Assembly: GCF_000620865.1 (NCBI RefSeq)
Contig: NZ_KK211190.1
Coordinates: 2,493,971-2,557,970, forward strand
From: Exiguobacterium sibiricum 7-3
Lineage (GTDB): Bacteria > Bacillota > Bacilli > Exiguobacteriales > Exiguobacteriaceae
Length of the DNA stretch: 64,000 nucleotides
Direction: 5' to 3'
In this document: positions 5,462-7,803 of the stretch, piece after piece
Position numbering within the stretch: position 1 is the stretch's first letter
Layout of the letters: each line of letters starts with the position of its first letter
Notes under the pieces: model-generated
Database searches by the model: none
Seen by the model: only the letters and a program-made list of their open reading frames with translations
Told to the model about the DNA's origin: nothing
Made by a program: the position numbers and the translations under genes

Positions 5462-5700
5462 ATCTCTTAAAACTCCTTTTTTCCAAAACAGGGTAATTAA
5501 TCTTAGATTTTAGAATAACATTCATTTCAAAACGTCACCATTTTTTGTACAGGGTGTAATCAAAATGAATTAATTCTCCCACTCTTAAAAGAGCTTCCCC
5601 CGTCAGATACGAGGATTGAATCTTTGTTTTTTGGGGTAAACATTTCTTGTATGCGTTTTCTTTAAATAATAATGATTGGCATCAGTCAGGGGCGAATCTT

Positions 5701-6246
5701 ATGACCATTTTAGACAAAGTGTTCATCGCCATCTCTCTTCTTTGGTTACTGGAATTGTTTCTTTTCCGAAACCGTAAGAAGGAACCTTCTCCACTCGAAG
5801 AACGGCGAAGTTTTTATTGGATTTTAGCTACATTAATCGCCACCATCCTCTTCTCCGTTGTATTCAGTGATTCAACCGCCCTTTCTTTTTCACGCGAAAT
5901 CGGATTGTTTCTGTTAACTGCCGGTGTCGCTGTGCGGTACTGGGGGATTTATCATCTCAAGCATCAGTTCACCCGCCACGTCACTGTCAATCCAGGCGAT
6001 CAGCTTGTCAGCACGGGTCCTTATCGGGCACTACGCCATCCCCTCTATACCGGTCTGTTTTTTATCACATTAGGCTTCCCGTTATACTTCGGGAACTTAC
6101 TCGTCACGTTATGTGCCGGCGTCCTGATGTTCATCGCTTTGCTTCACCGCATTCGAATCGAGGAACGGATGTTGACGGAAGGATTTGGTCCTACTTACAC
6201 TGCCTGGGCCCGCAGAAGAAAACGTTTGATTCCATTTATCTACTAA
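5701..6246 (+). CDS. ICMT/PEMT-like integral membrane methyltransferase
   Basis: A 181-residue protein with several membrane helices and the isoprenylcysteine carboxyl methyltransferase/phospholipid methyltransferase signature: R-H-V-T-V-N-P-G ... S-T-G-P-Y-R-x-x-R-H-P-L-Y-T-G, then a C-terminal 'RIRIEERMLTEGFG' segment. Such enzymes use S-adenosylmethionine in the membrane. I prefer the ATG at 5701 (AGGGG upstream) over a TTG at 5647 that adds 18 unlike residues. Only about 22 nt separate it from the carotenoid oxygenase gene, so the two form one operon. Bacterial ICMT homologues have no known prenyl-protein substrate. The context suggests a carotenoid carboxylate, which is inference. Confidence 0.75.
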   Translation: MTILDKVFIAISLLWLLELFLFRNRKKEPSPLEERRSFYWILATLIATILFSVVFSDSTALSFSREIGLFLLTAGVAVRYWGIYHLKHQFTRHVTVNPGDQLVSTGPYRALRHPLYTGLFFITLGFPLYFGNLLVTLCAGVLMFIALLHRIRIEERMLTEGFGPTYTAWARRRKRLIPFIY

Positions 6247-6268
6247 GACATAAGGAGATGTGATTTTT

Positions 6269-7753
6269 TTGAAGAAACAAGCAGTCGTCATTGGAGCAGG
6301 TTTAGCAGGTATGTCAGCCGCAATCCGCCTCGCAGGAGACGGTTATGAAGTCACGATGCTAGAACAAAACGGAAACGTTGGCGGTAAATTAAACCAACGC
6401 AGTGGTCAAGGATTTACGTTCGATACCGGCCCTTCTATCTTGACGATGCCTTGGGTACTCGAGCAATTGTTTACGAGTGTTCACCGTCGACTCGACGACT
6501 ATCTCGAAATCGAACGCATCGAACCGCAATGGCGGACCTTCTTCGAAGATGGGACACAACTTGACGTCAAAGGCGATCTTCCAGGCATGCTGGAAGAGTT
6601 CAAAAAAGTTTCCGACCAAGCAGATTTCGTCGAACTGTTCAGTTATTCCAAAAAAATGTACGACCTGTGTTTGGATAGTTTCTACAAATACAGTCTCGAA
6701 GATTTAAAGGACTTAAAAAAATACCATACGATGTCTGAATTACTTAAGATGGACCCTCTCAATACAGTAGCAAGCGGTACAAAAAAACATTTGAACAACA
6801 AATACCTGGAGCAACTGTTTAACTATATGGTCATGTATGTCGGTTCCAACCCTTACGAAGCTCCTGCTGTCTTCAATCAAATGATTTACGTTCAGATGGG
6901 TCTCGGCATCTATTATGTCAAAGGTGGTATGTACAATATCGCCCGTGCCATGAAGACGGTGCTTGACGAACTCCGGGTAACCATTCACGTCAACACACCT
7001 GTCGAACGTGTCGTCACAGAAGGCAAGCGTGCAATCGGCGTGGAAACGACAGACGGTACATTTTATCCGGCTGATGTCGTCGTCTCGAACCTTGAGGTCA
7101 TTCCGACCTATCAACATCTCATTTCAGAGAAAAAAGGACCAAAACATGCTAAAAAATTAAATCAGTCATTCTTGCCATCTGTTTCCGGTCTTGTCCTGTT
7201 ACTTGGAGTTAACCGCGAATACAAAGACTTGAAACACCATAACTTCTTCTTCTCCGATGATCCGGAACGGGAATTTGCCCAAATGTTCAAGGATGGGGTT
7301 CCACCAGAAGATCCAACGATTTATGTCGGTGTCTCTTCTAAATCGGACGCTTCACAGGCTCCTGAAGGAAAAGATAATTTGTTCGTCTTGACACACGTGC
7401 CACCACTGACGAAACAAGACAGCAAAACTGATTGGGATGCGTACCGTGAAGTTGTCCTCGATAAATTGGAACGGATGGGACTGACTGATTTACGCGAATC
7501 GATTGAATTTGAATACCGCTTTACACCAGAAGACTTGAAATCCCTATACGGTCCGAACGGCGGCTCGATTTATGGCGTGGCAGCCGATCGGAAAAAGAAC
7601 GGTGGATTCAAGATTCCATCGAAGAGCGATCTTTACGAAGGTCTTTACTTCGTTGGTGGTTCCACACATCCGGGTGGTGGTGTCCCAATGGTCACTTTAT
7701 CGGGTCAGCTGACAGCTGATTTAATCCAAAAACATGAAAATGTAAAGGCATAA
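6269..7753 (+). CDS. crtP: CrtP/CrtNb-type diapolycopene oxygenase (carotenoid desaturase family)
   Basis: An FAD-dependent amine-oxidase/phytoene-desaturase fold protein of about 494 residues. The N-terminal dinucleotide-binding motif 'VVIGAGLAGMSAAIRLA' and the C-terminal 'GLYFVGGSTHPGGGVPMV' FAD motif are intact. It matches remembered staphylococcal CrtP (4,4'-diapolycopene/neurosporene oxidase) better than CrtN, for example in 'SNLEVIPTYQHL', 'HHNFFFSDD', 'KLERMGLTDLR' and 'SIYGVAADRKKN'. CrtP-type enzymes oxidise terminal methyl groups of C30 carotenoids to aldehydes. The start is probably the TTG at 6269, 11 nt after AGGAG; the GTG at 6260 is too close to the site. No crtM, crtN or aldehyde dehydrogenase gene is in the window. 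Confidence 0.85.
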   Translation: MKKQAVVIGAGLAGMSAAIRLAGDGYEVTMLEQNGNVGGKLNQRSGQGFTFDTGPSILTMPWVLEQLFTSVHRRLDDYLEIERIEPQWRTFFEDGTQLDVKGDLPGMLEEFKKVSDQADFVELFSYSKKMYDLCLDSFYKYSLEDLKDLKKYHTMSELLKMDPLNTVASGTKKHLNNKYLEQLFNYMVMYVGSNPYEAPAVFNQMIYVQMGLGIYYVKGGMYNIARAMKTVLDELRVTIHVNTPVERVVTEGKRAIGVETTDGTFYPADVVVSNLEVIPTYQHLISEKKGPKHAKKLNQSFLPSVSGLVLLLGVNREYKDLKHHNFFFSDDPEREFAQMFKDGVPPEDPTIYVGVSSKSDASQAPEGKDNLFVLTHVPPLTKQDSKTDWDAYREVVLDKLERMGLTDLRESIEFEYRFTPEDLKSLYGPNGGSIYGVAADRKKNGGFKIPSKSDLYEGLYFVGGSTHPGGGVPMVTLSGQLTADLIQKHENVKA

Positions 7754-7755
7754 TC

Positions 7756-7803
7756 AAAACAGGAGATTGTCCCTTCAGTGAAGGGACGATCTCCTGTTTT
7801 TTT
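7756..7803. terminator. Bidirectional terminator after crtP
   Basis: A long near-perfect stem (AAAACAGGAGAT.. / ..ATCTCCTGTTTT) has T-runs on both strands and lies between convergent genes. Confidence 0.9.

Follow-up and report, generated by a model that had tools for sequence, protein, structure and literature searches.

Metabacillus indicus is one of the bacteria reported to make methyl-ester C30 carotenoids, and the locus described here raises the question of which enzyme forms such an ester. In the window, a stretch of 64,000 nucleotides of the Exiguobacterium sibiricum 7-3 genome, a gene for a small membrane methyltransferase lies directly upstream of a gene for a putative carotenoid oxidase, and a sequence-only reading had proposed that the first methylates a carotenoid acid. 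Methyl-ester C30 carotenoids were reported in Planococcus maritimus and Halobacillus halophilus (PMC9598406, PMC8502411), in line with what that reading had said of the two genera, and both genera carry the methyltransferase gene. The P. maritimus pigment is methyl 5-glucosyl-5,6-dihydro-4,4'-diapolycopenoate, and the genes forming its acid were still missing in 2021 (PMC8502411). Orange glucosylated C30 pigments were described as differing from the yellow ones mainly in the methyl ester, the loss of which was ascribed to CrtP (PMC8933910), and an "unknown methyltransferase" was invoked for a C30 diacid in Methylobacterium (PMC10448405). Our literature search, in which subscription papers were mostly beyond reach, found, among the papers listed, neither a methyltransferase gene assigned to the C30 methyl-ester step nor an Exiguobacterium carotenoid structure. 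The free acid of the P. maritimus pathway was reportedly produced in E. coli in a 2023 study, to go by its title (cited in PMC12821545). Judging from sequence comparisons and a predicted structure, the gene at 5701-6246 likely encodes a carotenoid carboxyl O-methyltransferase that caps a C30 carotenoid acid as a methyl ester.

The features of the locus, all on the + strand, are the following.

5614..5639, +: possible sigma-B-like promoter, weak (GATTGA or ATTGAA, 13-14 nt, GGGTAA), noted for the recurrence of GGGTAA
5701..6246, +: ICMT-fold membrane methyltransferase, candidate carotenoid carboxyl O-methyltransferase (PF04140, AlphaFold2 model, profile match to 4a2n)
6252..6257, +: AAGGAG, read in the sequence; probably where ribosomes bind for the CrtP-type gene
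6269..7753, +: predicted C30 carotenoid terminal oxidase of CrtP type, 494 aa when started at TTG (in the CrtP superclade of the tree; TIGR02734, 386.6 bits against a cut-off of 238.1)
7757..7799, +: intrinsic terminator at the end of the operon of two genes (stem of 20 pairs, loop of 3 nt, T run)

The methyltransferase ORF runs from ATG 5701 to the stop at 6246 and encodes 181 aa; an in-frame TTG at 5647 would give a longer ORF, and the ORFs of several close orthologues (L018-L020) start exactly at the ATG. The second gene, of the CrtI family, probably starts at TTG 6269 and stops at 7753, its longest ORF beginning at GTG 6260. The spacing between the stop at 6246 and TTG 6269 is 22 nt, in agreement with the first estimate. 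A scan of the + strand between the two genes revealed no terminator-like site and a strong terminator directly follows the second gene, which bears out the earlier assignment of both to one operon. Upstream, with G319 set aside, all 18 loci of genus g1 have GGGTAA at the same position, and a sigma-B-like site (at least 9 of 12 positions) is found in 20 of the 21 named Exiguobacterium loci. Such a site is present in 36 of 79 upstream regions (L119, whose frame was missed, is left out), whereas shuffling of the letters would lead one to expect 17; nearly all of the surplus comes from Exiguobacterium. This element may place the operon under stress control. The window genome has 3.08 Mb in seven contigs, and its nearest relatives among the named loci (see below) are those of Exiguobacterium sibiricum and E. 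sp. RIT594, with CrtP-type proteins 99% and methyltransferases 87% identical.

The small protein belongs to the ICMT/PEMT membrane methyltransferase superfamily, with scores above the curated cut-offs for both PF04140 (ICMT, 58.9 bits, cut-off 24) and PF04191 (PEMT, 55.4 bits, cut-off 25), and its motif reads G-P-Y-R-A-L-R-H-P-L-Y, as had been noticed at first sight (G-P-Y-R-x-x-R-H-P-L-Y). With the NCBIfam equivalog of protein-S-isoprenylcysteine O-methyltransferase, NF040696, it scored 63.3 bits against a cut-off of 160, so that label was dropped. An AlphaFold2 model, built from 57 aligned sequences (window plus named loci), had a mean pLDDT of 83.7 and the predicted fold of the solved ICMTs: Foldseek placed first 4a2n, the Ma-ICMT of Methanosarcina acetivorans (TM 0.79 by query length, E 1.6e-4), followed by the eukaryotic ICMT structures 5v7p and 5vg9 (TM 0.70 and 0.72 by query length). 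A sequence profile search also ranked 4a2n first (E 3.6e-19). The invariant columns of the subfamily alignment include the H-P-L-Y of the RHPLY motif and R...EE, and both align with 4a2n. The window protein thus resembles Ma-ICMT in fold, in the aligned RHPxY and R...EE motifs and in its similar size, and the eukaryotic enzymes in the fold of the model. It differs from the solved ICMTs in sequence (21-22% identity) and in the stretch preceding the motif, consensus HLKxQFTRHV, a hallmark that sets the subfamily apart. ICMTs methylate a lipid-linked carboxylate; their acceptor is a prenylcysteine, whereas the one proposed here is a carotenoid acid.

The partner oxidase was placed in a tree of the CrtI family (79 rows, one of them a duplicate, L182 = L089), computed by a quick method with SH-aLRT values and without bootstrap, and accompanied by long-branch warnings. 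A single clade (14 rows including one duplicate, SH-aLRT 100) unites the partners of Exiguobacterium, Metabacillus, Halobacillus, Jeotgalibacillus, Marinococcus and Salimicrobium. This clade is part of a wider CrtP superclade (34 rows, SH-aLRT 99) that also holds the Planococcus CrtP and the CrtP of operons with the order CrtO, CrtP, glycosyltransferase, CrtM, CrtN, an order typical of staphylococci. The homologues of CrtNa, CrtNb and CrtNc are found elsewhere in the tree, and the window partner groups with CrtP and with none of these three, in so far as a quick tree can tell. By this placement the gene at 6269-7753 is a predicted CrtP-type oxidase. Of the double label "CrtP/CrtNb-type" first given to it, the CrtP half stands and the CrtNb half falls, the P. 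maritimus CrtNb being in another clade. A relative of the window partner in a sister clade, CrtP2 of Planococcus faecalis, is a demonstrated aldehyde-forming oxidase of the terminal methyl of a C30 carotene (PMC7764019); the Planococcus protein in the tree (L073) was taken as the CrtP2 orthologue on the basis of the tree and of first residues similar to the published CrtP2 primer, translated by hand.

Recurrence of the gene pair was inspected in two sets of genomes. To obtain the named loci, some 85,000 species genomes were scanned by pattern, using the methyltransferase alignment; of the 89 relatives that this gave, 80 were kept. The scan catches only genes matching one of two peptide patterns and may omit records very near the window genome. 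A CrtP-type gene directly follows the methyltransferase in 41 of the 80 loci. These comprise all 33 loci of Metabacillus (2/2), a Peribacillus-labelled genome (1), Halobacillus (15/15), Jeotgalibacillus (8/8), Marinococcus (4/4) and Salimicrobium (3/3), together with eight of the 22 of Exiguobacterium. The pair is adjacent in none of the other 14 Exiguobacterium loci, called here the E. aurantiacum group, and in none of the 25 of Planococcus/Planomicrobium; these genomes keep the methyltransferase and have a different CrtP elsewhere. In a sample of 398 Bacilli genomes the subfamily was present in 49 at 154 bits or more, the next score being the 82 bits of G220, whose diverged homologue (34%) lies directly beside a CrtP-type gene. 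Among these 50 genomes, surveyed with three candidates scored per genome, the two genes are adjacent in 23 and not in 27: adjacency is seen in 19/19 genomes of group g1, 3/3 of g42 (Metabacillus-type genomes, where G183 is Metabacillus indicus LMG 22858) and G220, and in 0/19 of g2 and 0/8 of g60, a group that includes the Planococcus or Planomicrobium genomes G111, G224 and G322. The partner oxidase of G220 falls outside the 14-row paired clade and inside the CrtP superclade.

The flanking genes, compared with one representative per genus, were mostly different. Halobacillus and Salimicrobium have three genes in common, Jeotgalibacillus and Metabacillus one locus-edge ORF with a 75% match, and the other cross-genus matches were weak, below 31% identity. 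The pairing is therefore not confined to this genome: it recurs in six genera, in mostly different surroundings. A sodium/calcium-exchanger gene (PF01699) that follows the pair in Halobacillus and Salimicrobium was treated as incidental; in Marinococcus the gene after the pair is unrelated.

The distribution of the methyltransferase follows that of the genes of a carotenoid acid route. In the 398-genome sample, CruF is present in 49/49 subfamily genomes and a CrtP-type gene in 48/49, assigned for most genomes by an E-value proxy (E <= 1e-117) and by the tree for its 79 rows only; absences of CrtP are weak evidence because three candidates were scored per genome. In the single exception, G345 (L211, L217), the methyltransferase is retained, no CrtP passed the threshold used, and crtNb is separated from crtM by a transposase-like ORF (HTH_38, rve). 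Of the 54 genomes with both CrtP and CruF, 48 have the methyltransferase, G220 a diverged one, and five (G179, G269, G314, G353 and G360) none. The genes close to CrtP in G179, G353 and G360 are instead those for a glycosyltransferase and CrtO (L068, L067, L069); near the CrtP of G314 are genes for an aldehyde dehydrogenase and a glycosyltransferase (L079). Fisher values for co-occurrence went down to 5e-54; they treat the genomes as independent and so are not probabilities. At the genus level, where nine of the 145 genera have CrtP as well as CruF, the figure was 7e-6, with kinship among genera ignored.

The glucosyl-ester route has CrtO (PF18927) as its acyltransferase. This enzyme was searched for, at the family cut-off, in the 90 genomes with the methyltransferase or with CrtP by proxy, and was found in 3/49 genomes with the methyltransferase, all of g42, and in 36/41 CrtP genomes without it; these counts follow lineages and are not independent events. 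Sub-cut-off matches in G301 and G381 (22.5 and 21.1 bits, inside long frames) were left out. The five CrtP genomes with neither gene are G220, which has the diverged methyltransferase, G269, G293, G314 and G344. Within g60, CrtO is present in 0/8 genomes with the methyltransferase and in both listed without it (G089 and G233), which lack CruF. Since the distribution of CrtO is nearly complementary to that of the methyltransferase, the two end-capping sets look like alternatives. CrtO adjoins CrtP in L067-L069, L071 and L076. The g42 genomes have two CrtP paralogues, one with the methyltransferase (L051/L087) and one beside glycosyltransferases and CrtO (L071/L210), and may make both types of ester.

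The two trees tell how the pair may have been separated. In the methyltransferase tree (drawn without L118) one clade (100/98) holds the Exiguobacterium proteins, whether paired or not, and a second (99/98) those of Planococcus and Jeotgalibacillus. The CrtP of unpaired Exiguobacterium (L075, L188), in turn, nests with Planococcus CrtP (100), which suggests a transfer of CrtP between the two lineages. As the Exiguobacterium methyltransferases are one clade although the unpaired CrtP nests with that of Planococcus, the simplest account of these sequences would be that the pair is ancestral and that two lineages exchanged their CrtP for another and retained the methyltransferase. Such a swap fits an enzyme that acts on the product downstream of CrtP and does not need a particular CrtP protein.

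The main carotenoid cluster lies ~225-230 kb from the pair in the window. It has genes for a CruF-type hydratase, an acyltransferase, a glycosyltransferase and CrtNb on one strand, and for CrtM, CrtNc and CrtNa on the other. In the window genome a MatE gene is found upstream of CruF (L016:2586-3968), and asparagine-synthase genes are beside crtNa in G220 and G353 (L207:14753-16621, L218:1147-2997); these genes resemble the yisL-yisO-yisP-yisQ region of B. subtilis and are perhaps a remnant of such a cluster. Also beside crtNa in Exiguobacterium are genes for a class-I SAM methyltransferase and a DUF1516 protein (L016:13556-15107); homologues of this methyltransferase in L213, L215 and L216 have an FAD_binding_3 gene as their neighbour. 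The content and order of the main cluster match those reported for orf7-6-5-4 and orf3-2-1 of P. maritimus (PMC8502411). There is no aldehyde dehydrogenase gene in the window, as remarked earlier. One is found at G000:C7:2428048-2429268, 38% identical to that beside CrtP in G344 (L084), and the Metabacillus indicus CrtNc was named 4,4'-diapolycopen-4-al dehydrogenase (PMC13044350); by homology, the aldehyde dehydrogenase and the CrtNc homologue are two candidates for the step from aldehyde to acid.

Putting these genes in order, CrtM, CrtNa, the CruF-type hydratase, CrtNb, the glycosyltransferase and the acyltransferase of the main cluster would make the 5-(acyl)glucosyl-5,6-dihydro-diapolycopene half of the molecule. 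The CrtP-type oxidase (6269-7753) would convert the opposite methyl end into an aldehyde, the aldehyde dehydrogenase or CrtNc would take the aldehyde to the acid, and the integral-membrane, SAM-dependent O-methyltransferase of ICMT/PEMT fold would turn the terminal carboxylate into a methyl ester. The end product would be methyl 5-glucosyl-5,6-dihydro-4,4'-diapolycopenoate or a close relative. The observations joined in this way are the predicted fold, the operon layout, the recurrence of the pair, the co-occurrence with CruF and CrtP and the near-complementarity with CrtO; the substrate, reaction, product and order of steps are what the explanation proposes.

Compared with known systems, the window genome shares with the P. 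maritimus C30 pathway the gene content and order of the main cluster and an orthologous methyltransferase (L131); the P. maritimus CrtP differs in being in another clade and away from the methyltransferase. As in staphyloxanthin-type end-capping, CrtP would oxidize the end and partner enzymes esterify the acid. In that system, however, the acid is glucosylated and acylated (glycosyltransferase, CrtO), both of which the methyltransferase seems to replace here, and the CrtP clades differ. The acceptor proposed here is akin to that of the norbixin carboxyl methyltransferase in bixin synthesis, which acts on an apocarotenoid acid at its carboxylate; that enzyme has a soluble SABATH-type fold and belongs to a plant pathway.

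The main rival to a carboxyl methyltransferase at 5701-6246 is the class-I SAM methyltransferase of the main cluster (L016:13556-14743), which would make the ester while the ICMT-like protein acted otherwise near CrtP. It adjoins crtNa in the Exiguobacterium clusters read, carries PF00891 and PF13649, and is encoded in 61 of the 398 genomes, including 49/49 with the ICMT-like gene; in G002 a CrtI-like gene of the amine-oxidase family (25% to CrtP) is two genes from it. This explanation appears unlikely, given that the class-I gene is also present in eight genomes without CrtP by proxy, G345 among them; that a search of two Marinococcus genomes and one of Salimicrobium, all with the ICMT-CrtP pair, gave no match to it; and that it is not beside a crt cluster in the Planococcus (L212), g42 (L213), G300 and G229 stretches read, with an FAD_binding_3 neighbour in three. 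It is very improbable that the ICMT-like enzyme methylates another group of the CrtP pathway, a carotenoid or sugar hydroxyl, to give a methoxy compound: operon linkage alone does not fix the acceptor and the superfamily has methylators of other acceptors (the LmtA and MddA models give weak matches that stay well under the cut-offs), but a carboxylate is the outcome of the CrtP route, the pigments described from genera that carry the gene are methyl esters (PMC9598406, PMC8502411), and CrtO, which belongs to the alternative route for esterifying the same acid, has a nearly complementary distribution. We give equally little credit to an action on a prenylated peptide, a quinone or a phospholipid with the carotenoid operon as an accident. 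The family is broad and its nearest NCBIfam model is a protein isoprenylcysteine methyltransferase; that model's cut-off was not reached (see above), CruF accompanies every subfamily member of the sample, and the genes around the pair mostly differ from genus to genus.

Some points count against the carotenoid carboxyl methyltransferase itself. CrtP is not adjacent in Planococcus/Planomicrobium and in the other Exiguobacterium, and G345 has no CrtP at the threshold used. A free-acid glycoside was reported for P. faecalis (PMC7764019), although the gene is present in related Planococcus; the end product predicted for Exiguobacterium RW2 was diaponeurosporene-4-oic acid (PMC6331483); and the class-I methyltransferase beside crtNa has a similar genome range. 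The yellow Planococcus mutant CP5-4_YE has lost 3 kb, which leaves crtP and three other ORFs truncated (PMC8933910). Its genome has three CrtI-family genes at E <= 1e-50, against four or five in the other eleven genomes of that search, and its methyltransferase gene is open (L134). The mutant was therefore set aside as genetic support for the role of the methyltransferase and speaks to CrtP only.

Taken at the level of the family, it is fairly likely that this ICMT-fold subfamily is the missing carotenoid carboxyl methyltransferase, of these Bacilli, and that CrtP is accompanied by either of two interchangeable end-capping sets, this methyltransferase or a glycosyltransferase plus CrtO, the set present deciding between a methyl and an acylglucosyl ester of the C30 carotenoid acid. 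If so, one small gene would be named for an unassigned step in C30 pigments with strong singlet-oxygen quenching, and the ICMT fold would extend from prenylated proteins to carotenoid acids, a known fold with a new acceptor. The gene set accompanying CrtP would then determine the end cap.
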